Source: a virus. Taken from it: a DNA stretch of 25,904 nucleotides. The translations under genes and the position numbers were made by a program. The stretch covers positions 1-25,904 of the IMG/VR virus record IMGVR_UViG_3300024352_000322, one strand, 5' to 3'. The notes beneath the pieces are model-generated. The model saw only the letters and a list, made by a program, of their open reading frames with translations. It did no database searches and was not told the origin of the DNA. Positions 1,254 to 24,568 of the stretch are shown piece after piece; positions within the stretch are counted from its first letter, which is position 1; each line of letters begins with the position of its first letter.

Positions 1254-1282
1254 ATTATAGCACCATGGAGCCAAAATGTCAA
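1254..1282 (-). promoter_or_regulatory. Perfect sigma70 promoter, nearly leaderless transcript
   Basis: TTGACA (1282-1277), 17 nt, TATAAT (1259-1254) on the minus strand. Only 9 nt separate the -10 box from the ATG at 1244, so the predicted leader is about 3 nt (ACT). The spacer shares TTTGGCT and GTGC with the promoter at 551-579, suggesting duplicated promoters. Confidence 0.85.
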
Positions 1283-1768: not shown

Positions 1769-2095
1769 TTAATCCTCTCTTGGGTGCGGTTGGTTAACTT
1801 CTGGATCCCACAGTGCTGCACGTTGCTGCTGTCCTGCTGCGACGAATCTGTGTAGATCTTCCATTCTTTCCTGGAACACCTCCGGGCTAGCTGCTGCTAC
1901 ACGCTGCATGTCCCAATCACCGGGATAGTGACGCAGCGCCCCGCGAGCACGATCACGTATACCTGAGGCCACTCTGGGAGTCATTTTGGGGTCACAGAGC
2001 TCTTCCAGCAGCCTACGTGCCTGCTGCACAGCTCTGTATCGTTCATCTGGTAATGTCAACTCTCTGCTCCTTGCCAAAGCTCTTTTCTTAAGCAT
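1769..2095 (-). CDS. BPSL0761-like phage protein (108 aa)
   Basis: The stretch 'LTLPDERYRAVQQARRLL' (residues 14-31), 'PRVASGIRDRARGALRHYP' and then 'W..QR.A...PEVF' follow the layout of a small family seen in phages and prophages and annotated, as I recall, as BPSL0761 family; its role is unknown. It is all-helical and Arg-rich, compatible with nucleic-acid or protein binding. The ATG at 2095 is exactly 6 nt downstream of a perfect TATAAT, so the mRNA should start at the A of the start codon and be leaderless. The three tRNA genes follow immediately downstream on the same strand. Confidence 0.7.
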   Translation of the reverse strand: MLKKRALARSRELTLPDERYRAVQQARRLLEELCDPKMTPRVASGIRDRARGALRHYPGDWDMQRVAAASPEVFQERMEDLHRFVAAGQQQRAALWDPEVNQPHPRED

Positions 2096-2101
2096 GAGTC
2101 T

Positions 2102-2130
2102 ATTATACGATCATTTTGACCCTTTGTCAA
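2102..2130 (-). promoter_or_regulatory. Perfect sigma70 promoter, leaderless transcript
   Basis: TTGACA (2130-2125), 17 nt, TATAAT (2107-2102). Six nucleotides (AGACTC) separate the -10 box from the ATG at 2095, placing the expected +1 on the A of ATG. The promoter lies in the 3' end of the upstream gene (2111-2338) and directly abuts the 11-bp repeat GGCCCCGCTGC (2141-2131). It probably also transcribes the tRNA cluster. Confidence 0.85.
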
Positions 2131-2338
2131 GCAGCGGGGCCGCCTTTTGGCTAGCTTGATCACGTATACGAGTGTAGATATCCCAATTGCGACTGTCCCG
2201 CCATATCATCTCCGCACAGCAGCGAGCTAGAAAGCCCGTGGCCCATATGAATGCCAGATGCCGTTCGCGATGTGTATAGGGATTTAGTTCAGAGATATCA
2301 CGCAGGATCCGATCAGCTAGTTCACGAGTGTTAGTCAT
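2111..2338 (-). CDS. Small protein of unknown function (75 aa)
   Basis: Starting at the ATG at 2338 (MTNTRELADRILRDI...), the 75-residue product is mostly helical, with a Trp/Cys-containing middle (FIWATGFLARCCAEMIW). The reading frame is open further upstream, but that would overlap the small membrane protein gene at 2365-2514, so the short form is preferred. A TAAGG lies about 13 nt upstream, a weak ribosome binding site. It contains the next promoter and one 11-bp repeat in its 3' end. No family is recognised. Confidence 0.5.
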   Translation of the reverse strand: MTNTRELADRILRDISELNPYTHRERHLAFIWATGFLARCCAEMIWRDSRNWDIYTRIRDQASQKAAPLLDKGSK

Positions 2339-2364
2339 TGTGTGTGTAACCTTAGCAGCGGGGC

Positions 2365-2514
2365 CTACAGGGCAAACGCTATGTATAGCATCAGATAACA
2401 GATCACAGCCAATTGTGCATTGACTCTGTCCTGCCACGAGTCACTAGTCAGTGCCCAGTATACTAGTAGAGTGAATAAAGGCACAGAGGCCAAGAATAAT
2501 ATAGTAGTGATCAC
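2365..2514 (-). CDS. Small two-helix membrane protein (49 aa), GTG start
   Basis: A 49-codon frame starts with GTG at 2514, preceded by the ribosome binding site GGGAGCGAACT, which resembles the AGGAGCGAAAC leaders of the genes at 76 and 518. The product has two hydrophobic segments, ITTILFLASVPLFTLLVYWA (residues 2-21) and LAVICYLMLYIAFAL (35-49), joined by the polar loop TSDSWQDRVNAQ, and it ends at the membrane edge. The codon order and hydrophobicity argue against chance. The stop TAG runs into an 11-bp GGCCCCGCTGC repeat. Function unknown; a holin-like or exclusion role is only a guess. Confidence 0.55.
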   Translation of the reverse strand: MITTILFLASVPLFTLLVYWALTSDSWQDRVNAQLAVICYLMLYIAFAL

Positions 2515-2690
2515 AGTTCGCTCCCGTGTATACTATACTTATACAGTGACTAGACCGTAGATGATCACGTTTTCAACGCAGCGGGGCCGGTAGATCTCTA
2601 CAGGGAAATGGTGGAAAACTGATCGTTTGAGCAGAGTAGAGTCTAGAATTTCATACAGTAGAGAATCGTCAGGTCGGTGGTAGGAGAGGC

Positions 2691-2780
2691 TTAGCTAAAA
2701 TACCACACAATTCCACACTTTTTCACACTTTTTTGCACTTTGTGGTATCCCCTACCCCCACTATAGATGTCTATACGCAT
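2691..2780 (-). CDS. Possible 29-aa micro-ORF
   Basis: An ATG at 2780 follows AGGAG with 7-nt spacing and opens a 29-codon frame (MRIDIYSGGRGYHKV...). The ribosome binding site is good, but the length is small and much of it is encoded by the CACACTTTTT repeats, so it could be accidental. Confidence 0.2.
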   Translation of the reverse strand: MRIDIYSGGRGYHKVQKSVKKCGIVWYFS

Positions 2781-2832
2781 GCCACTACTCCTAGTCCGAT
2801 CAGTAAATCACACTTTTTGCTACTTACTGATC
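2700..2832. repeat. Iterated CACACTTTTT with two inverted repeats
   Basis: CACACTTTTT occurs at 2714-2723, 2724-2733 and 2809-2818, with a related GCACTTT at 2735-2741. The first pair lies in the loop of ATACCACA (2700-2707) and TGTGGTAT (2741-2748). The third lies in the loop of the perfect 9-bp pair GATCAGTAA (2798-2806) and TTACTGATC (2824-2832). The 2515-2867 stretch has no convincing gene apart from the micro-ORF, so this looks like a regulatory or replication site. Confidence 0.55.
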
Positions 2833-2877
2833 ACGCACACACGCACACACGTATACGCACAACTCACGCAGCGGGGC

Positions 2878-3159
2878 CTAGGAGTCGTCCTCGCTCTGCG
2901 AGAGACTCCCTACAGTTAAATCCTCTGTGTCTACAGTATCTTCTATGATCACATACGTAGCAGTCTCTACGGTGCCGTTGGCCAGCTGGCATTGTTCTGC
3001 TTCCCAATTGTCCCCTATGCACACACGCTCTATACGATCTTGAAAGCCCAAATGCGAGTTACGAGCACGTTGGGCGATTCGAGCGCCAGCTCGAGTCTTA
3101 TAGTAACGAACTCGTTCTTCAGAGTCTTTGTGCACCAAATAGTAAACAGTCTTTTGCAT
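2878..3159 (-). CDS. Small phage protein of unknown function (93 aa)
   Basis: The product begins MQKTVYYLVHKDSEERVRYYKT and has a very acidic C-terminus (DTVDTEDL...SQSEDDS). The N-terminal hairpin followed by 'YYKTRAGARIAQRAR' parallels the gene at 616-921 (SYKTHPAAQAAITRAH), suggesting paralogy. There is no Shine-Dalgarno sequence within the predicted transcript: a late-type box TTTAAATA (3172-3165) stands exactly 5 nt before the ATG, so the mRNA may be leaderless. It is divergent from the gene starting at 3213. Function unknown. Confidence 0.65.
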   Translation of the reverse strand: MQKTVYYLVHKDSEERVRYYKTRAGARIAQRARNSHLGFQDRIERVCIGDNWEAEQCQLANGTVETATYVIIEDTVDTEDLTVGSLSQSEDDS

Positions 3160-3164
3160 ACTGA

Positions 3165-3172
3165 TATTTAAA
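3165..3172 (-). promoter_or_regulatory. Late-type promoter box, leaderless position
   Basis: TTTAAATA on the minus strand matches T4 late TATAAATA at 7 of 8 positions and ends 5 nt before the ATG at 3159. In T4 the box spans -13 to -6, so +1 would be the A of ATG. Confidence 0.5.
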
Positions 3173-3199
3173 CCTCTCGGGTCTTTAGACCCTGATTAC

Positions 3200-3207
3200 T
3201 GTAAATA
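3200..3207 (+). promoter_or_regulatory. Late-type promoter box, leaderless position
   Basis: TGTAAATA (7 of 8 match to TATAAATA) ends 5 nt before the ATG at 3213, placing +1 on the start codon. It stands back to back with the minus-strand box at 3165-3172. A small palindrome GGGTCT/AGACCC (3179-3192) lies between them. Confidence 0.5.
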
Positions 3208-3212
3208 ATTCT

Positions 3213-3401
3213 ATGTATACACTCAACTATGACCATCAGCAGTTGGATCGCTTACAGGATAGGATACGGGTAGGACAGCCAATTCGTATCATACACATAC
3301 TCTGGGACTACTCAGACGGCTTTTCAACTCATTGGGAAGATCGATACATAGTCATAATAGACTGTGATCCTGAGACTTATACTTTACTATGCTTGATATA
3401 A
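3213..3401 (+). CDS. Small protein of unknown function (62 aa)
   Basis: A 62-residue protein (MYTLNYDHQQLDRLQDRI...) with an N-terminal amphipathic helix and then strand-rich, Ile/Asp-rich sequence. No family is recognised. There is no Shine-Dalgarno sequence; the start sits 5 nt after a late-type box. Its 3' end overlaps the next gene by 13 nt in another frame. Confidence 0.5.
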   Translation: MYTLNYDHQQLDRLQDRIRVGQPIRIIHILWDYSDGFSTHWEDRYIVIIDCDPETYTLLCLI

Positions 3402-3601
3402 AGTTATTCTGTTATCGTTACCATCCATTTGAACAGTTAGCCTACGATGAAGAAGCTGTTTGGCGAGATATACAAGCATGGGGAGGTTGGATGAGTATCA
3501 GAGGAGATTGCATAGACTTCTTTGTGCCCTGTGAGTATATTAGTTTTTTTCTACTCAAGTATCCGGAACTCTCACGTCAACCTGCACTAGACTACGTATA
3601 G
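3389..3601 (+). CDS. Small protein of unknown function (70 aa)
   Basis: A 70-residue product with many aromatic residues ('VWRDIQAWGGWMSIRGDCIDFFVPCEYISFFLL' spans its middle and was judged protein-like). It starts inside the end of the previous gene, suggesting translational coupling since no ribosome binding site is visible. No known motif, signal or clear membrane helix. After it, 3602-3699 has no gene: it holds GC-rich hairpins and a late-type box. Confidence 0.5.
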   Translation: MLDIKLFCYRYHPFEQLAYDEEAVWRDIQAWGGWMSIRGDCIDFFVPCEYISFFLLKYPELSRQPALDYV

Positions 3602-3672
3602 TTATATGCGTAGATAATTATTCAAATTCCCTACACACAATCTGCGCTGCGCTTCGCGCTAAAAAATTTGCG

Positions 3673-3688
3673 CTGCCCCTCCGGGCAG
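3673..3688. other. Strong 6-bp hairpin before a late-type box
   Basis: CTGCCC (3673-3678) pairs with GGGCAG (3683-3688) around the loop CTCC. A second GC-rich stem-like stretch (GCGCTTCGCGC) lies about 20 nt upstream, separated by AAAAAATTT. No T-tract directly follows either hairpin on either strand, so it is not a classic terminator. It may insulate the next transcription unit. Confidence 0.45.
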
Positions 3689-3694
3689 TAAATA
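3687..3694 (+). promoter_or_regulatory. Late-type promoter box, leaderless position
   Basis: AGTAAATA keeps the core TAAATA (6 of 8 to TATAAATA) and ends exactly 5 nt before the ATG at 3700. The downstream gene has no Shine-Dalgarno sequence. Confidence 0.45.
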
Positions 3695-3699
3695 CTCTG

Positions 3700-4359
3700 A
3701 TGACCTACTCTCAATTACTAGCCTTTGGTTGCAGTCACGTTGCGGGCTGCGAGTTGATTCCTATGCCTCCTCAGTGGTTCGCAGACTATGACAGTCAGTG
3801 TAAGCCTCTCAGCTTTAGCAATCAGATCGCGGATCGTTTAGGAATTCCCTGTGCAAATTGGGCCATGAGCGGAGGCTCAAATGCTCGCACACTGAGATTG
3901 CTGGCTCGTGAACTAGCAGCATTGAGTCCCAGCATCGTGATCGTAGGCTGGACCTATACAGATCGCTCAGAGTGCTATTGGCCTGATCCAGGGCAGTGGC
4001 CCTCTAGAGATCAGGATCTTTATCTGCAATTGGGCTCACAGTGGCTGGACATGCCTGACTGTGACACCGCAGCTAATCGTGCTTACATACAGCACATATG
4101 GAGACCCAATCCTACACTGGCCACTCTGCATCGTTGCGCTCAGGCTCTGTGTCTGCAAGGTGGACATCAGCTCATAGAACTGATCATGACTGACGAACCC
4201 GATCTTGACACACCCTGGGCACTGAGCATAGAGGGCAGACCGAACTATCCGCAGTGGCTGAGAGATCGAGGCTTTGCCTGTGGTCCTTGGGGTCACGGAC
4301 TTGAAGACGCTCATGAAGCTTTGGCTGATCTGTTGGTCAAAGCGGTGCAGGTAGAATAA
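3700..4359 (+). CDS. SGNH-hydrolase-like phage protein (219 aa)
   Basis: The opening 'LLAFGCSHVAGCEL' (residues 6-19) has the GxS nucleophile block I, 'NWAMSGGSNARTLR' (52-65) resembles the block III region with GGSN, and the C-terminal 'EDAHEALADLL' supplies a D-x-H pair as in block V of SGNH/GDSL hydrolases. This fits a family annotated in phages, as I recall, as DUF6071/SGNH. Usual activities are esterase or deacetylase; a role on host surface polysaccharide is possible but unproven. It has no signal peptide. It starts the plus-strand run that continues with the lipoprotein gene 8 nt later. Confidence 0.75.
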   Translation: MTYSQLLAFGCSHVAGCELIPMPPQWFADYDSQCKPLSFSNQIADRLGIPCANWAMSGGSNARTLRLLARELAALSPSIVIVGWTYTDRSECYWPDPGQWPSRDQDLYLQLGSQWLDMPDCDTAANRAYIQHIWRPNPTLATLHRCAQALCLQGGHQLIELIMTDEPDLDTPWALSIEGRPNYPQWLRDRGFACGPWGHGLEDAHEALADLLVKAVQVE

Positions 4360-4362
4360 ATA
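4355..4362 (+). promoter_or_regulatory. Late-type promoter box, leaderless position
   Basis: AATAAATA (7 of 8 match to TATAAATA) overlaps the stop codon of the SGNH-like gene and ends 5 nt before the ATG at 4368, placing +1 on the start codon. Confidence 0.5.
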
Positions 4363-4367
4363 ATAAC

Positions 4368-4769
4368 ATGAAGAAATTCTTTTTGATCATGATCTGCGCA
4401 CAGTTGTTATCAGGCTGTGCTGCCCTAAGCACAGTTCGGGGTTGGATCCCTTCATTCTGGGATGATAATCAATCAGCTAAGATCGTGGATGTTCAGCTCA
4501 GAGTGGATCGCATCAACTGTGATCAGCCACAGTTGGCACAGGCAGAGCGCATACGTGATGATCTTAGATGGTTTGAACTGTATTCTAACAGCAAGGGTTC
4601 TAGACAGGCAGATGTTCTGCGCTTGATCAAGCCCATGCAGGACACAGTGGATGATTGGTATCGGCGCAGTCTAGATCAGCAGGGCTCAAAGGGCTACTGT
4701 GAGATCAAAAAGAAGATACTGCAATCACAGAGTGAACGAGCTGCTTCTGCAGTTCTAGGGAGATTTTGA
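4368..4769 (+). CDS. Putative phage lipoprotein (133 aa)
   Basis: Residues 1-17 form a lipoprotein signal: KK, a hydrophobic core FFLIMICAQ and the lipobox LLSG-C, so Cys17 is the predicted lipidation site. The mature part is helical and polar, with 'DDLRWFELYSNSKGSRQADV' near residues 63-82 and a C-terminal Cys region (GYCEIKKKI). Residues 2-4 after Cys are AAL, which would not retain it in the inner membrane, so an outer-membrane periplasmic-face location is predicted. Possible roles include superinfection exclusion; an Rz1-type spanin is less likely because the protein is long and not Pro-rich. The stop overlaps the next start (TGATG). Confidence 0.7.
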   Translation: MKKFFLIMICAQLLSGCAALSTVRGWIPSFWDDNQSAKIVDVQLRVDRINCDQPQLAQAERIRDDLRWFELYSNSKGSRQADVLRLIKPMQDTVDDWYRRSLDQQGSKGYCEIKKKILQSQSERAASAVLGRF

Positions 4770-11036: not shown

Positions 11037-11627
11037 ATGACACTAGTCCCAATGGTAATCGAAACTACATCCAAAGGCGAACGTGCTTTCGATATCTACA
11101 GCAGATTACTCAAAGAGCGTATCATTATGTTAAATGGTCCAGTTGAAGACCATATGGCTAATTTGATTGTTGCTCAAATGTTATTTTTGGAATCAGAAGA
11201 TCCAAACAAAGACATTAACTTATTCATTAACTCGCCGGGCGGTGTGGTCACAGCAGGTTTGAGTATCTATGATACCATGCAGTTTATTAAATGTGATGTG
11301 GCTACCTATGTCATGGGTCAGGCCTGTTCAATGGGATCGTTTCTAGCCAATGCAGGTGCAAAGGGCAAACGTTTTATGCTGCCCAATGCTCGTCATATGA
11401 TCCACCAACCATCGGGCGGTGCAAGAGGTATGGCATCTGACATTGAGATTTCATACAAAGAGATCATGCACATCAAGAAACGTCTAACAGAACTTTATGT
11501 CAAACATAATACCCAAGGTAAGACCTACGAAGAGTTCGAACGTGATATGGATAGAGATAAATTTATGAGCGCAGAAGAAGCCTTAGAATACGGGCTTATT
11601 GATAAAATTATTGAGAAAAGACCATGA
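11037..11627 (+). CDS. clpP: ATP-dependent Clp protease proteolytic subunit ClpP (196 aa)
   Basis: ClpP forms a double-heptamer peptidase chamber fed by ClpX or ClpA. Full catalytic set: Ser in '[20 protein letters not shown]' (Ser98), His in '[11 protein letters not shown]' (His123) and Asp in 'MDRDKFMS' (about 172-174). The 'INSPGG' oxyanion region and the '[16 protein letters not shown]' handle are intact, and the length equals bacterial mature ClpP. It is therefore a cellular-type, probably active ClpP rather than a diverged capsid-maturation protease. No ClpX/A gene is in the window, so it may join host ATPases or mix with host ClpP. It overlaps the cupin gene by 4 nt. Confidence 0.95.
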
Positions 11628-12010
11628 ACCAACAACCAACAGGAAAGTTAGACAAGGGCTGGGGCTTTGAATTAGTCTGGGCCAACAACGAAAAATACTG
11701 TGGAAAGATCCTAGTATTTGAGCGTGTGGGCGCAAAGACTAGCCTAGTGTTTCATAGAGATAAACGCAAGAGCTGGTTTGTCAACGAAGGAAAGATTCGT
11801 GTAACCTGGACTGATGTAGGCACAGGCGAATTGAAACAGGCTGAGCTAGAAGCAGGCAAGACCGCAGACTTTGCAGAAATGAGCCCCCATCAAGTGGAAG
11901 CTCTAGAACCCAACACTGTGATATTTGAAGTAGGAACTACAGATATTATTGAAGACCGTTTTAGACTTGCACCTGGTGATACGCAAACGAAGCCTTCAGA
12001 GCAGAAATAA
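11624..12010 (+). CDS. Cupin-domain protein, mannose-6-phosphate isomerase type II-like (128 aa)
   Basis: '[22 protein letters not shown]' (residues 12-33) and '[20 protein letters not shown]' (38-57) match the lone C-terminal cupin of type II phosphomannose isomerases: the paired strands with a metal-binding His, though the usual Glu after 'K.K' is Ser. Such single-cupin proteins occur in phages and are thought to act on sugars, but a pure binding role is possible. ATGA overlap with clpP makes them one operon. The 3' end overlaps the convergent 5-aminolevulinate synthase gene by 50 nt, with no terminator between. Confidence 0.75.
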
Positions 12011-13181
12011 GATCTTCAATCATTCCATCATCATGAAACGGAGTAGGTGCAAAACGTAACCGCTCCGTTCCCACATCTACTGTAGGATAGTTGATAGGCT
12101 GCACATAGATGTTGTATTCGTTTAACAGCATATCTGACACTGCCTTACACTTAACAGCATCGCCTACCAGCACAGGAACGATGTGTGTAGTAGAACATTC
12201 CATGACTCGAATACCGTTGGCATTTAATCTATGCTTGAGTTTTCTAGCACGTTCTTGATGCTTGTCTCGTATTTCATTATGATCTTTAAGATACTTAACT
12301 GCGGCTAGAGCACCAGCACAGGCCACAGGGCTCATTGATGTGGTGAAGATAAATCCAGCAGCTACTGAACGGATGGCATCAATAACATCTGCATCAGCAG
12401 CAATGTAACCGCCCTGGACGCCAAATGCTTTGCCCAGTGTTCCGTTAATGATATCGATTCTATTTTCTAAACCTAGTTCTTCAACTTTGCCGCCACCGTG
12501 TGTGCCGTAAAGTCCCACAGCATGAACTTCGTCGATGTAAGTTATAGCTTGATATTTGTCTGCTAGATCGCAGATCTGCTTGATAGGACTTACATCACCG
12601 TCCATAGAATACACTGACTCAAATACTATACACGGAGTATGTCCTGCTAATTTACTGTGAGCTAATTTGTTTTCTAGATCTTCTAGATCATTATGTTCGA
12701 ATATCTGTTTGGCTGCTCGACTGTGTTGTATGCCTACGATCAAACTGTTATGGTTTTTACTGTCAGAAATAAACTGTATATTTGGCACGATCTTAGCAAG
12801 GCTGATCAGTGTCCATTCGTTGGCCACATATGCTGAACTAAACAGCAGGGCACGACTTTTGTTATGCAGTATGGCTAGTTCGTGTTCTAGAGCCACATGA
12901 TAATGACTATGTCCGCCTATATTTCTAGTTCCGCCAGAACCCGACCCTGTTTGGTCTAGAGCTGTGTGCATGGCATCTAGCACTACTTTGTTCTGCCCCA
13001 TACCTAGATAATCGTTTGAGCACCAATTAACTATAGTTTTAATGTTATAGGGCCCATACCATATAGCTTTGGGGAATTCACCACGCTCGCGAACAATGTC
13101 GTTGAATACACGATATTTGCCGGAATCTTTAAGGTCTTTGATTAATTGTTTGAAAGGTTCTTTGTTGATCATAGTAAACAT
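11961..13181 (-). CDS. hemA: 5-aminolevulinate synthase (ALAS, 406 aa)
   Basis: This PLP enzyme condenses glycine and succinyl-CoA to 5-aminolevulinate, the first step of heme/tetrapyrrole synthesis in alphaproteobacteria. Hallmarks: '[11 protein letters not shown]', '[17 protein letters not shown]', 'DSKNHNS', 'ESVYSMDGD', '[12 protein letters not shown]', the PLP lysine in '[16 protein letters not shown]' (about Lys251) and a C-terminal '[10 protein letters not shown]'. The GGTRNIGG and FTTS motifs favour ALAS over other alpha-oxoamine synthases, and the length matches bacterial HemA (about 407). No Shine-Dalgarno sequence is visible. An ATG at 13172 is equally plausible: a weak late-type box (GTTAAATA) would put +1 three bases before it. 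A frame extension to TTG at 13202 is less likely. Confidence 0.93.
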
Positions 13182-13189
13182 ATTTAACC

Positions 13190-15712: not shown

Positions 15713-16335
15713 TGTTTCGTAGACATCAAGTAACACTGATGTCAAATCCTTCTTGCACAAAACCTGTAGAAGGTCTAGAAACACAGGACTTCAAATATTA
15801 CGACAAAGACGGATTTGAACTTAATCTAGCAGAACAGAAGTTTTATTCTGCTATGGGTTATCCCATTAACTATCCTATACTAAATCATCGTTGTTGGCAG
15901 GAGCCTTGGTTCGAATTAGAAAAATCTGATCTCGGATTAATACTAGATCATTCTATGTTTTTATGTCGTTGCAATTACGATAGAGAAGCTGTCGATCAAC
16001 TAAAAGAACTAAAAGAACTTATCCCTTCAGCAGATTATCTTTTAAGGACTAAACGTAAATGGGGTTTTGATTTTGCTTTAGATGCTGTCACTGAAGACGG
16101 CACCGTTTATGAAGTTCTGCACGTGGAATATGATCACTGCGACTATGAAACATTTAAGAATCGTATGATCTGTTTTGAATATACTGTTCGACATACTGAT
16201 TGGCAAGATGCAGCTATCCGTATTTGGAACGCTAAAAACAAGTGGGATCATCTACAAGGGTTCGAACAAAATCATTGGAAAGCTGAATATTTGCTCGGAT
16301 GGACAAAAGCTGAGTATACTGAAAAAGCCGTATAA
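15712..16335 (+). CDS. Phage protein of unknown function (207 aa)
   Basis: The ATG at 15712 overlaps the previous stop (TAATG); an alternative ATG at 15739 exists. The product has a Cys/Trp/Tyr-rich centre and 'KWGFDFALDAVTEDGTVYEVLHVEYDHCDY' style alpha/beta sequence near residues 115-145, then 'GFEQNHWKAEYLLGWTKAEY' at the end. I recall related proteins in T4-like cyanophages but no function. No signal, membrane or catalytic motif is recognised. A late-type promoter begins within its last codons. Confidence 0.7.
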   Translation: MFRRHQVTLMSNPSCTKPVEGLETQDFKYYDKDGFELNLAEQKFYSAMGYPINYPILNHRCWQEPWFELEKSDLGLILDHSMFLCRCNYDREAVDQLKELKELIPSADYLLRTKRKWGFDFALDAVTEDGTVYEVLHVEYDHCDYETFKNRMICFEYTVRHTDWQDAAIRIWNAKNKWDHLQGFEQNHWKAEYLLGWTKAEYTEKAV

Positions 16336-16338
16336 ATA
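16331..16338 (+). promoter_or_regulatory. Perfect T4-type late promoter box
   Basis: TATAAATA, 8 of 8. Predicted +1 near 16344 gives a 20-nt leader containing AGGA before the ATG at 16364 (thermonuclease). It overlaps the stop codon of the previous gene. Confidence 0.75.
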
Positions 16339-18899: not shown

Positions 18900-19520
18900 A
18901 TGCACATTGCTATATTTGTTCATCAACCAGCTTGCTCAGTTGATTCAGTTAATGGCATTATAAAATCTCTTTCTCCTCAACATTCCTTTAAATTATTTTC
19001 CAAAGATGAAGTAGAATCTACATTCTTCGATGATGTAGACTGTATTTGTATTCCCGGAGGCATCGGAGATGCAGATAGATTTGATAGCCTAATGAAATAC
19101 AATGAAGAGCATGTTGTTCGATATGTAAAACAAGGAGGCCGCTATCTTGGCATATGCATGGGCGCATATTGGGCAGGACCTGATTACTTTGACCTACTTA
19201 ATAATGTCAAAGTAGAACAGTATATTAGACGACCTAAAACAGATACCCATCGCCCACACCCAAAAGCCATGCCTGTGTTATGGAACGGCGAACAGCATAG
19301 GATGTATTTCTACGACGGTTGTGCATTTGAAGGCACAGGCTTTAAAACAATAGCAACTTATCCTAACATGGATCCTATGGCGATCATTCAAAACCGCATA
19401 GGATTAATAGGCTGTCACCCTGAAAGTAGTCAATACTGGTATAATAAAAAATACCTCGAACCGCATTGGCATCGAGGTATTCATTACAAACTTTTATTAG
19501 AGTTTGTTAACTCTTTCTAA
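18900..19520 (+). CDS. BPL_N / class I glutamine amidotransferase-like protein (206 aa)
   Basis: 'CICIPGGIGDADRFD' (residues 49-63) followed by 'GGRYLGICMGAYWAGPDYF' (79-97) with the nucleophile-elbow Cys, and 'GLIGCHPESSQYW' (168-180) supplying His and Glu, match the BPL_N/DJ-1-like flavour of class I amidotransferase folds. The length is as expected for a stand-alone domain. BPL_N proteins are often found without a known partner; the substrate is unknown. The start is an ATG without a strong Shine-Dalgarno sequence, preceded by the structured RNA. The 3' end overlaps the convergent terC by 14 nt. Confidence 0.8.
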   Translation: MHIAIFVHQPACSVDSVNGIIKSLSPQHSFKLFSKDEVESTFFDDVDCICIPGGIGDADRFDSLMKYNEEHVVRYVKQGGRYLGICMGAYWAGPDYFDLLNNVKVEQYIRRPKTDTHRPHPKAMPVLWNGEQHRMYFYDGCAFEGTGFKTIATYPNMDPMAIIQNRIGLIGCHPESSQYWYNKKYLEPHWHRGIHYKLLLEFVNSF

Positions 19521-20199
19521 ACAAATACTTTTTGTGAAGATGCAATCTTGCCTGATTGTATTGAACAGCAGTAATAACCAATGCAGCTACCCAAGGTAGT
19601 ATTGCGGCCACCCAAGGAACTAATCCTGCCCACCATGCAGCCATTAATGGTTCTTTCATAGCCATTAAGAATGCTACAGCAAATAACACAAATGATCCTA
19701 GAAATACTGTGTCCGGCCAACGTTGTAGTATCTTGCTGACCATGGTAGCACCAAACAATATGATTGGCACACTGATCAACAATCCAGCGGCGACTAAAAT
19801 AAAACTACCATTGGCGGCTGCGGCAATGCCTAAGGCATTGTCTATGCCCATGACAGCATCAGCGACCACAATAGTTCCAATTGCACCCCAGAAGGTGTCC
19901 TTGGCTTCGATGTTGTGTTCGCCGTGATCAAATACCAGTTTCCAGCCAATCCATATCAGTGCTAGAGCACCTATGATCCTAAGTCCTGGGATCATTAATA
20001 GGTATGTTAGTGCCGCAACTGATACAAATCGTATAGCAATGGCTCCGAACGTTCCCCAGAAGATTGCCTTCTTGCGTAAGTGGTCTGGTAATTTGTTAGC
20101 CGCCATTCCGATAACAAGAGCGTTATCACCAGCTAATACAATGTCTATCAAAATGATAGCGAGAAATGCCCAAAGGGCTTGGAGTGTAAAGAGTTCCAT
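19507..20199 (-). CDS. TerC-family membrane transporter, YjbE/YkoY type (230 aa)
   Basis: About seven hydrophobic segments and the two TerC signatures are present: 'IILIDIVLAGDNALVIGMA' (residues 15-33) and 'IVVADAVMGIDNALGIAAAA' (109-128). The paired Asp-Asn residues in membrane helices probably bind metal. Characterised relatives export Mn2+ and help metallate secreted proteins. It is 230 residues, the short YjbE-like form without C-terminal CBS domains. Its leader carries a yybP-ykoY Mn2+ riboswitch, giving an independent hint of Mn2+ export. The ribosome binding site AAAGGAAAATT lies just before the ATG. Unusual in a phage. Confidence 0.9.
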   Translation of the reverse strand: MELFTLQALWAFLAIILIDIVLAGDNALVIGMAANKLPDHLRKKAIFWGTFGAIAIRFVSVAALTYLLMIPGLRIIGALALIWIGWKLVFDHGEHNIEAKDTFWGAIGTIVVADAVMGIDNALGIAAAANGSFILVAAGLLISVPIILFGATMVSKILQRWPDTVFLGSFVLFAVAFLMAMKEPLMAAWWAGLVPWVAAILPWVAALVITAVQYNQARLHLHKKYLFRKS

Positions 20200-20313: not shown

Positions 20314-20898
20314 TTAGCCTACGATTCTCTCGTAGATTTCTTTCCAGTTCTTTACTCTAGGAATTTCCGGATGTTCAAAATCCATATTGTGTCCATGTTC
20401 CATAAGTAAACTTTTTAGACCTCGATCTTGACCAGCTACAGCATTGGTAATTTTATCTTCAATCCACCAATAGCCTTTGTCTTGATACTTGTCCAATACT
20501 TCGTCTTTATCAGCACCTGTTTCTAGTATGATAAATTTGGTAAATGCAGTTTCTCCAAACAACTTACGCAGATTCATTTTGCGTAGTTCCTGTGCATTCT
20601 CATCTGAACTCATAGATGTGATACAATGAAACACATAACCGTGTTCTTCGTGTAGCCGTTTAACATAGAACATGGCATCACGCAAGGGCGGTAAGAAACC
20701 CATATGTGCCGATTCATTAAACATCTTTATAAGTTTTTTGGCCTGCTCTTTTTCAATACCATAGCGTTTGCCAATATCGTATTTGAATTGGTGATCCTCG
20801 GTTTTTTGGAAACCATGTTGTTCCATCCAAACTGAGAAAGCGTATTCCCAATCTAGCAGAACTCCGTCTGCGTCTGTTAAAATGATTTTATTTTTCAT
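20314..20898 (-). CDS. HAD-superfamily phosphatase (194 aa)
   Basis: 'ILTDADGVLLDWEYAF' (residues 6-21) is HAD motif I with the Asp nucleophile and DxDG pattern. 'CITSMSSDENAQ' (about 92-103) fits motif II (T/S), and 'GYWWIEDKITNAVAG' (142-156) is the acidic motif IV region. It resembles the 5'(3')-nucleotidase-like HAD proteins found in phages, perhaps acting on nucleotides. The ATG at 20898 is 6 nt after a perfect TATAAT, so the mRNA is leaderless; the frame's longer start at 20913 lies inside the promoter and is rejected. Confidence 0.85.
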   Translation of the reverse strand: MKNKIILTDADGVLLDWEYAFSVWMEQHGFQKTEDHQFKYDIGKRYGIEKEQAKKLIKMFNESAHMGFLPPLRDAMFYVKRLHEEHGYVFHCITSMSSDENAQELRKMNLRKLFGETAFTKFIILETGADKDEVLDKYQDKGYWWIEDKITNAVAGQDRGLKSLLMEHGHNMDFEHPEIPRVKNWKEIYERIVG

Positions 20899-20904
20899 AC
20901 AGCT

Positions 20905-20933
20905 ATTATACACTCAGTTAATTAATTTGTCAA
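20905..20933 (-). promoter_or_regulatory. Perfect sigma70 promoter, leaderless transcript
   Basis: TTGACA (20933-20928), 17 nt, TATAAT (20910-20905), then AGCTGT and the ATG at 20898, so +1 should be the A of ATG. The layout is the same as at 2102-2130. Confidence 0.85.
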
Positions 20934-20948
20934 GTCCTCTACAAGACC

Positions 20949-20956
20949 CATAAATA
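20949..20956 (+). promoter_or_regulatory. Late-type promoter box for the isocitrate lyase operon
   Basis: CATAAATA (7 of 8 to TATAAATA). Predicted +1 near 20962 yields a 19-nt leader with AAGGAG before the GTG at 20981, the same geometry as at 16331-16338. Confidence 0.65.
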
Positions 20957-20980: not shown

Positions 20981-22189
20981 GTGAAAAAACGCAATTACAC
21001 ACAAGACACAGTCCGCAAGTTACAAGGCTCATTACAAATTGAGCACACTTTAGCCAAACGTGGTGCTACCAAACTACGTGAACTTCTAGCTACAGAACCA
21101 TACGTTAATACGCTAGGCGCATACAGTGGACAACAAGCAGTCCAACATGCCAAAGCAGGACTCAAAGCAATTTACCTATCGGGTTGGCAAGTGGCCGCAG
21201 CCGCTAACACCGCAGGTCAAACATATCCTGATCAAAGTTTATATCCAGTAAACTCTGTTCCTACAATCGTTAAACAGATCAACAATGCTTTCCGTCGTGC
21301 TGATCAAATCGAATACTCAGAAGGTAATGTAACTACAGATTACTTCCTACCAATCGTTGCTGATGCTGAAGCAGGCTTTGGTGGTGCGTTAAACGCATAC
21401 GAATTGATGATGGCCATGATCGAAGCAGGTGCAGCCGCAGTTCACTTTGAGGATCAATTATCAAGTGAAAAGAAATGCGGTCACTTGGGCGGTAAGGTTC
21501 TAATTCCTACTAGCCAAGCGATTCGTAACCTACAGGCTGCGAGATTGGCCGCAGATGTAGCAGGTGTTGATACAGTTATTCTAGCAAGAACAGATGCAGA
21601 ATCAGCAACGTTGATTACCAGCAACCATGACCCGTTAGACAAGGATTTTATTATCGATGAACGCACTGAAGAAGGTTTTTACAAATTTAAAAATGGGCTT
21701 GATGCATGTATTAGCCGAGGTCTTGCTTATGCCCCTTACGCTGATCTCCTATGGTTCGAAACTAGCACACCTGATATTGCACAGGCTAAGAAATTCGCCG
21801 ATGCTATACATGCTGAGTTTCCAGACCAAATGTTGGCTTATAATTGCAGCCCTAGTTTTAATTGGCGTAAGTTTTTATCTGTAGACGAGTGCGAAACATT
21901 CCAGCGCGAGCTAGGTGAATTAGGATATAAGTTCCAATTCATTACACTAGCAGGATTCCACAGTGTTAACCTAGCAACATTTGAATTAGCAGAAGCATAC
22001 AAACAACGTGGTATGGCTGGCTACAGTGAAATGCAGGAACGTGAATTTGCCGCCCAGGCTCGTGGCTTCACAACCGTTAAACATCAACGTGAAGTTGGCG
22101 TTGGTTACTTTGATCTAATCAGTGAAGCAGTTGGTGCTACCAGCACAGTGGCCAACAAGAGTTCTACAGAAGCGGAGCAATTTCACTAA
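20981..22189 (+). CDS. aceA: Isocitrate lyase (402 aa), GTG start
   Basis: Isocitrate lyase cleaves isocitrate to succinate and glyoxylate, the entry of the glyoxylate shunt. The catalytic loop KKCGHLGG (residues 164-171, Cys166) is exact. Substrate and metal regions are present: 'SGWQVAA' (67-73), '[10 protein letters not shown]' (126-135), 'HFEDQ', 'NCSPSFNW' (288-295), 'TLAGFHS', and a C-terminal [13 protein letters not shown] separates it from methylisocitrate lyases. At 402 residues it is shorter than E. coli AceA (about 434) but complete. GTG start with AAGGAG. The stop overlaps the aldolase start (TAATG). Rare in a phage; no malate synthase is in the window. Confidence 0.94.
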
Positions 22190-24560: not shown

Positions 24561-24568
24561 TATTTATA
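24561..24568 (-). promoter_or_regulatory. Perfect T4-type late promoter box
   Basis: TATAAATA (8 of 8) on the minus strand. Predicted +1 near 24555 gives a 20-nt leader with CAGGAG before the ATG at 24535, the same geometry as at 16331-16338. Confidence 0.7.

Follow-up and report, generated by a model that had tools for sequence, protein, structure and literature searches.

Two promoter classes placed on start codons point to leaderless early and late mRNAs in T4-like phages

In the virus record IMGVR_UViG_3300024352_000322 of IMG/VR and in related phages, promoters of two classes very probably place the first transcribed nucleotide on the A of the start codon, so that leaderless mRNAs would be made and translated as such; the 5′ ends are predicted from the DNA. 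The window analysed here is the entire 25.9 kb record (25,904 nucleotides). In the proposed mechanism, +1 would be the A of the start codon, with a leader of 0 nt or, occasionally, 1-3 nt. Early genes would be read from host-type sigma70 promoters (TTGACA-17-TATAAT-6-ATG) and late genes from a T4 gp55-type box (TAAATA-5-ATG, sometimes 4 nt). The resulting mRNA, with a 5′-terminal AUG and without Shine-Dalgarno (SD) sequence, would be bound as a leaderless message by 70S ribosomes, dependent on fMet-tRNA and IF2, as for lambda cI. Leaderless starts would be one of two maintained designs, because leadered, usually SD-bearing genes follow the same two boxes in the same genomes.

Two sigma70-type sites in the window, for which the original prediction had reported an ATG 6 nt past a perfect TATAAT, were found exactly as described. 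At the first (promoter 2102..2130, minus strand; TTGACA 2130-2125, 17 nt, TATAAT 2107-2102), the ATG lies exactly 6 nt past the TATAAT at the predicted +1 of 2095 and opens, without an SD, an ORF of 108 aa with no assigned function (MLKKRALARSRE..., 1769..2095(-)). Homologues with its MLKKR N-terminus in the genomes G002, G003 and G020 have the same promoter and 6-nt spacing. At the second (20905..20933, minus strand; TTGACA 20933-20928, 17 nt, TATAAT 20910-20905), the ATG at the predicted +1 of 20898, again exactly 6 nt on, starts an NT5C/HAD-like phosphatase of 194 aa (phrog_420, 20314..20898(-)), and this promoter is kept in most close relatives. Both sites match the sigma70 promoter (TTGACA, 17 nt, TATAAT) at 12/12 positions. 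Within the window, TATAAT-6 nt-ATG occurs at 2 of 20 sites (P = 0.05), and at 2 of 7 perfect promoters (P = 0.0065). The TTGACA at 17 nt had been overlooked, as had two near-leaderless genes with predicted 3-nt leaders: one starts at ATG 1244(-), 9 nt past the TATAAT of a perfect sigma70-type promoter (1254..1282(-)), and the other, a 5-aminolevulinate-synthase-like gene (11961-13172(-)), at ATG 13172, 8 nt after a late-type TAAATA (13181..13186(-)). In orthologues of the latter from G001, G002, G003, G010 and G020, the box-to-ATG distance is 4-5 nt.

The late-type box TAAATA stands exactly 5 nt before an ATG at four window sites, all of them as first reported (3159(-), 3213, 3700 and 4368), and each ATG is the predicted +1. 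The starts at 3159(-) and 3213 are divergent and 53 bp apart; they belong to ORFs with no assigned function of 93 aa (2878..3159(-), box 3165..3170(-)) and 62 aa (3213..3401(+), box 3202..3207(+)). A GAGG that precedes the 3159(-) ATG by 13 nt is too distant for a good SD and also lies upstream of the predicted +1. In orthologues of 3159(-) the TAAATA box is mostly not kept, which makes this a single site without comparative support. The third box (3689..3694(+)) precedes an ORF of 219 aa without family match (3700..4359(+)), for whose product no relative was found in IMG/VR. The fourth (4357..4362(+)) overlaps the stop codon of 3700-4359 and leads to a lipoprotein-like ORF of 133 aa (MKKFFLIMICAQLLSGC..., 4368..4769(+)). 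Read-through from upstream genes could give some genes longer mRNAs, for example 4368 with its overlapping box. TAAATA-5 nt-ATG was found at 4 of 14 sites in the window (P = 9e-5).

Other late-type boxes, earlier placed at 16331, 20949 and 24561 and said to leave SD-bearing leaders of 19-20 nt, were confirmed as the leadered design. They comprise 16333..16338(+) (ATG 16364, 20-nt leader with an SD-like motif), 20951..20956(+) (GTG 20981, 19-nt leader with AAAGGAG) and 24561..24566(-) (ATG 24535, 20-nt leader with AGGAG). The candidate leaderless transcripts had been described as free of internal SD sequences, and this is true of the window sites. Across the window and its relatives, SD-like motifs were found in 0/36 sigma70 and 6/103 late leaderless candidates, compared with 82/109 sigma70 and 87/154 late leadered genes.

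The original prediction had proposed a histogram of box-to-start distances on the full phage genome. Since the window is the whole record, this was run on related phage genomes, namely the window together with nine relatives from IMG/VR (1.33 Mb in all; seven of the nine span 68-250 kb), with start codons taken mechanically from ORFs. Both boxes gave peaks at 5-6 nt, and the two proposed geometries, TATAAT at 6 nt and TAAATA at 5 nt, are the two main modes genome-wide. For TATAAT, 31 ATGs lie at 6 nt and 5 at 5 nt, although 5 of these 36 cases come from the family of the 20898 gene, which is over-represented because the relatives were picked via its homologue. For TAAATA, there are 72 at 5 nt and 31 at 4 nt. 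Past the peaks follows a near-empty stretch with 0-5 cases per position at 8-16 nt, and then a second hump at about 17-33 nt, which is the leadered, usually SD-bearing class. The peak genes number 139 in 88 protein families. GTG or TTG starts formed no peak in the same histogram (sigma70 at 6 nt: ATG 31, GTG 2, TTG 0; late at 5 nt: ATG 72, GTG 3, TTG 1). An unbiased position-specific hexamer scan recovered TAAATA at 5 nt (74 vs 6.8 expected, p 2e-49), TATAAT at 6 nt (33 vs 4.1, p 4e-19) and TTGACA at 29 nt, corresponding to 6+6+17 (30 vs 2.8, p 9e-21). The statistical weight of both spacings is moderate in the window alone and overwhelming in relatives.

The geometry is not private to the window phage: it is also present in relatives and in the cultured pelagiphage HTVC008M, and an unselected sample from IMG/VR contains its sigma70 form. 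In this sample, scored by open-frame fraction and not by whole-collection spacing counts, an open frame of at least 60 codons starts at N6-ATG in 76/117 of the perfect promoters among the matches listed, and at N10-ATG in 18/117. Such an open-frame filter is needed, as T4 gives 10 raw pattern matches yet no real peak. In HTVC008M, 11 late boxes are followed by an ATG at 5 nt, and its late-box genes include gp010, gp014, gp019, gp020, gp025, gp026, gp027, gp053, gp063 and gp093. Melnitz, a Methylophilales phage, has three such boxes, including that of the same adenylate-cyclase gene as in HTVC008M. No clear sigma70 leaderless peak was seen in the HTVC008M or Melnitz genome, and in C48C1, which is the nearest named phage when judged by the 20898 gene, the sigma70 signal is weak at most (three cases at 5-6 nt). 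T4, Syn9, S-PM2 and phiM12 together showed no peaks, with one sigma70 case at 5-6 nt and zero late cases at 4-5 nt.

Among orthologues of 20898 and 4368, the spacing was kept while the upstream DNA diverged; for 4368, about 13 distinct divergent upstream sequences carry TAAATA-4/5 nt-ATG. This conservation extends to distant relatives. Some genes switch between leaderless and operonic form among orthologues. The leaderless reading first proposed for the window is supported by the hexamer scan, the ATG specificity, the control genomes and this orthologue conservation.

What the geometry is for is a separate matter. Leaderless starts could be a by-product of genome compaction, in which promoters drifted onto starts, were tolerated by the host and have no function of their own; we consider this a serious contender, only somewhat short of an even chance, and it disputes the purpose and not the mechanism. 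The short intergenic regions, the switching among orthologues and the sharing of one geometry by two unrelated promoter classes all fit such a history, whereas the long conservation despite diverging flanks, the gap left empty at 8-16 nt and a possible link of leaderless starts with low-copy parts speak against it. Leaderless starts may, on the other hand, be of benefit to the phage. In one speculative and rather unlikely version, start geometry would be a built-in code for dosage and timing, with low-copy proteins made from leaderless starts (terminase, head closure, tail-tube cap, baseplate wedge, tape measure, DNA-end protector, clamp loader) and high-copy ones from SD-led starts (capsid, sheath, tube and portal genes), and phage changes to the ribosome, e.g. 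through bS21, may tune the balance. A phage bS21 is present in G002, G004, G005, G006, G008, G009, G011 and HTVC008M and absent from G001, G003 and G007, all three of which also have leaderless-type genes.

The anatomy of the sites fits that of promoters. Distances of 6 and 5 nt between box and ATG agree with box positions of -12..-7 and -13..-6, and the T4 late box is positioned at -13 (PMC2988020). A -35 match of at least 5/6 was found in 31/36 leaderless sigma70 cases vs 6/35 off-peak, and in these genomes the sigma70 promoters with leaders prefer A (71%) and then T (61%) in the register of the leaderless-class ATG. There is little or no space for a leader, because terminators directly adjoin the box in some relatives, including the boxes before the terminase genes G001:125531(-) and G003:63772(+), and because divergent starts are separated by 26 bp in HTVC008M and by 53 bp in the window. 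This promoter and terminator anatomy can be read directly in the genomes, as can the geometry, the peak that it forms genome-wide, its conservation and the lack of SD sequences. From these we infer that the 5′ ends lie exactly at the ATG and that the leaderless form is translated.

Two further explanations appear highly improbable. If the boxes were real promoters and translation began at a downstream, SD-led codon, the leaders would be ordinary; the starts were indeed assigned mechanically from ORFs, but the peaks are ATG-specific and confined to one position, homologous proteins align from residue 1, and GenBank agrees with all eight HTVC008M start codons checked. The N-terminus of the 20898 protein is confirmed by its C48C1 homologue, which has the same first residue and whose gene lies within an operon, and the 4368 protein opens with a complete lipoprotein signal that would be destroyed by removal of the N-terminus. 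It is just as hard to credit that TAAATA or TATAAT by the ATG aids translation in polycistronic mRNAs, as a context rich in A/T or supplying a stop codon (TAA), and has no role in transcription. A/U-rich upstream regions can aid initiation, and in some cases (4357 in the window, 11961 in HTVC008M) the preceding gene uses the TAA of TAAATA as its stop codon, but the sigma70 class keeps its separate TTGACA at 17 nt, it is TAAATA and not TAA in general that is conspicuous among all hexamers at this spacing, no cistron lies upstream of the divergent and terminator-bounded genes, and the equally compact T4-like genomes of Syn9, S-PM2 and T4 lack such a peak. On this evidence we rejected both possible artefacts, a stop-codon context and a wrong start. 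Two points of background count against the leaderless reading itself. Leaderless mRNAs are usually poorly translated in well-studied gammaproteobacteria. Moreover, a survey called only 2 of 117 alphaproteobacterial genomes leaderless-bearing (PMC3160421). The best matches of an isocitrate-lyase-like gene are an alphaproteobacterium (69%) and Arthrobacter (67%), and no host was assigned from these.

The late boxes resemble those of T4, whose late promoters have an 8-bp TATA box and depend on gp55 (PMC2988020). Both have a TAAATA core roughly one helical turn ahead of +1 and lack a -35 element. Of the TATAAATA-like 8-mer expected at -10, the TAAATA core is present here, and the two preceding bases are only weakly conserved in relatives and clearer (ATAAATAG) in HTVC008M. 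The difference lies in position: in T4, Syn9 and S-PM2 late boxes precede the start codon by about 20-30 nt, while here they do so mainly by 4-5 nt, a late 5-nt spacing shared with the cultured Kyanoviridae HTVC008M and Melnitz. A gp33 homologue is annotated in Syn9, and a window virion protein shares 59% identity with cyanomyovirus proteins. Searches for Gp23 capsid and T4 portal proteins succeeded in G001, G003, G007, HTVC008M and C48C1 and found neither in G002, G004, G005, G008 and G010; searches for sheath and T4-gp19 tube proteins returned nothing in the IMG/VR relatives. A study of pelagimyophages had missed late promoters with standard methods (PMC7029224), and boxes right on the start codons are a plausible reason.

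Lambda cI, transcribed from PRM, is the classic leaderless phage mRNA. There, too, a sigma70 transcript begins with the AUG, but lambda has a single such gene, whereas here there are dozens per genome and a second promoter class. Leaderless mRNAs are also known as a phage-wide habit: in the Thermus phage phiYS40, middle and late mRNAs are mostly leaderless, and infected cells show IF2 up and IF3 down (review PMC3594737). The likeness is that of a large phage with a whole temporal class, including late genes, expressed from leaderless mRNAs. However, the phiYS40 host belongs to Deinococcus-Thermus, where leaderless genes are common (PMC3160421), while the phages here are T4-like, use a gp55-type late box and are leaderless only in part of each promoter class. 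The -10-adjacent genes of Deinococcus-Thermus (PMC12340547) and the TA-like signals of bacterial genomes (PMC3160421) have the -10 placed, as here, with +1 at the start codon, and were recognised by the same distance statistic. Those are cellular and usually have a -10 alone, in contrast to the full -35 and -10 of the early class and the T4-type box of the late class. A two-promoter leaderless version in T4-like phages, virion genes included, appears to be unreported in the literature searched.

If confirmed, these results would mean that an abundant T4-like phage group of uncultured water bacteria runs its early and late programmes partly independently of SD sequences, with terminase, clamp-loader and baseplate genes among the SD-independent set, and the calling of starts and promoters in such genomes would change. 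HTVC008M offers a cultured system in which the leaderless prediction is directly testable. A further question is how leaderless phage mRNAs fare on host ribosomes, or on ribosomes altered by the phage (bS21).

The IMG/VR record of this virus consists entirely of the 25.9 kb window, and all coordinates of promoters, boxes and starts in the original prediction were confirmed in its sequence. Seven perfect TTGACA-17-TATAAT promoters were found, all on the minus strand, and in two cases, an ORF (2095, minus) and an NT5C/HAD-like phosphatase gene (20898, minus), the ATG lies exactly 6 nt past TATAAT. Late-type TAAATA boxes are rarer than chance (14 versus 21 expected), and four of the 14 have an ATG exactly 5 nt downstream, at the ORFs 3159 (minus), 3213 and 3700 and at the lipoprotein-like gene 4368. 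Based on the window alone, the late set reached significance (P = 9e-5), with the TATAAT set at the borderline. The window further contains four copies of the element GCAGCGGGGCC (reverse complement GGCCCCGCTGC; 2127-2141, 2351-2365, 2574-2588 and 2864-2878), spaced 224, 223 and 290 bp apart and close to the ends of small minus-strand ORFs, with one copy immediately upstream of the 2130 promoter. Host-like genes encode an isocitrate-lyase-like enzyme (20981-22189, plus) and, as judged by eye, a putative TerC-like membrane protein (19507-20199, minus) and a putative ClpP-like protease (11037-11627, plus).

The box-to-start distance histogram proposed in the original prediction was run on relatives collected via the 20898 gene, of which nine contigs were read whole (1.33 Mb including the window), with distances taken from each box to an ATG lying close to where an open frame begins. 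The anticipated peaks at 5-6 nt were present: TATAAT was followed by ATG at 6 nt in 31 cases and at 5 nt in five, and TAAATA at 5 nt in 72 and at 4 nt in 31, the sigma70 5-nt and late 4-nt positions having been added post hoc, after the data were seen. Past the peaks, both boxes showed 0-5 cases per position at 8-16 nt, followed by a leadered hump at ~17-33 nt; GTG and TTG starts gave no peak in the same histogram. Grouping the 139 leaderless candidates gave 88 protein families, with 23 families in the sigma70 class and 66 in the late class. When every hexamer was scanned without bias at every distance, the strongest signals, alongside Shine-Dalgarno (SD) words, included TAAATA at 5 nt, TATAAT at 6 nt and TTGACA at 29 nt. 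In a minor class, the ATG and the box lie 3 nt further apart (late 8 nt, sigma70 9 nt), which predicts a 3-nt leader; members of this class include 59714 of the cultured SAR11 phage HTVC008M (NC_020484) and window starts 1244 (minus; 9 nt past TATAAT of a perfect promoter) and 13172 (minus). The 5-aminolevulinate-synthase-like gene (11961-13172, minus; named from its homologue in the related contig G001) is leaderless in five relatives, 4-5 nt from TAAATA, and lies at 8 nt in the window.

SD-like motifs occurred in 0/36 sigma70 leaderless candidates versus 82/109 leadered starts, and in 6/103 versus 87/154 for the late class. A good -35 element (at least 5/6 matches) preceded 31 of the 36 sigma70 candidates, whereas only 6/35 off-peak TATAAT sites had one. 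Where the sigma70 promoters of these genomes are leadered, they favour A then T in the register of the leaderless-class ATG, an independent sign of the +1 position. Terminator-like hairpins stand immediately 5' of the box in 10/103 late candidates compared to 9/600 random places, including the terminase large subunit genes of the relatives G001 and G003, which makes upstream read-through unlikely at these genes. In HTVC008M, the divergent DNA-end-protector and head-closure genes have 26 bp between their start codons, with two boxes within; the 3159/3213 pair shows the same layout with 53 bp.

Upstream of 20898 homologues, the DNA is strongly divergent outside the promoter. TTGACA-17-TATAAT-5/6-ATG is kept in most of the closer homologues; others are leadered or in operons. 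For the 4368 gene, TAAATA-4/5-ATG is kept in ~13 distinct upstream sequences, and other orthologues have different upstream contexts, some with SD-like motifs. The 2095 gene is common to four phages, with identical N-terminus and promoter geometry.

Four equally compact T4-like genomes, T4, Syn9, S-PM2 and phiM12, served as controls: analysed in the same way, they yielded a single sigma70 case at 5-6 nt, and late cases at 4-5 nt were absent. In T4 and Syn9, the late box instead lies ~20-30 nt ahead of the start. In HTVC008M, 11 late boxes are followed by an ATG at 5 nt, and the GenBank start matched the predicted leaderless start exactly in all eight genes checked (gp010 2OG-Fe(II) oxygenase, gp014 CsgF, gp019 adenylate cyclase, gp026 head closure, gp027 baseplate tail tube cap, gp053 baseplate wedge subunit, gp063 baseplate wedge initiator and gp093 tail completion). 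The starts of gp020 (putative tail tape measure; 16007, minus) and gp025 (DNA end protector; 18916, minus) coincide with annotated ends. The cultured Methylophilales phage Melnitz has three genes of this late-box geometry, one of them adenylate cyclase, and its annotated starts agree for adenylate cyclase and gene 112.

TATAAT usually occupies positions -12 to -7. The first base of the T4 late box is at -13 (PMC2988020). If +1 is the A of ATG, distances of 6 nt for TATAAT and 5 nt for TAAATA are expected from these registers. Transcription from the A of ATG with SD-independent ribosome binding is the best reading: RNA polymerase would initiate at this A, and the resulting 5'-AUG mRNA would be bound by ribosomes without an SD. 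A bS21 homologue is encoded by seven related contigs (G002, G004, G005, G006, G008, G009 and G011) and by NC_020484 (91237-91392), and is absent from G001, G003, G007, T4, Syn9 and C48C1, the closest named phage by the 20898 gene; phage bS21 could be relevant to SD-independent translation.

Leaderless mRNAs are a familiar phenomenon. They make up the majority of middle and late transcripts in phiYS40 (PMC3594737), and -10-adjacent starts have been described in Deinococcus-Thermus (PMC12340547). For T4-like phages, we found no description of a leaderless habit in the literature searched, subscription papers being outside its scope; in a pelagimyophage study, late promoters went undetected by standard methods (PMC7029224).

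Leaderless genes of known role mostly encode enzymes or low-copy parts, whereas the capsid, portal, sheath and tube genes checked have SD-like starts, with the box often more distant or absent. This suggests leaderless starts as a candidate means of dosage control, with simple compaction as a serious alternative explanation. In an unselected IMG/VR sample, among the matches listed, at least 60 codons were open in 76/117 cases with an ATG at 6 nt from a perfect promoter versus 18/117 with an ATG at 10 nt. Leaderless starts of the sigma70 form are therefore common among environmental phages and not peculiar to the phage of the window.
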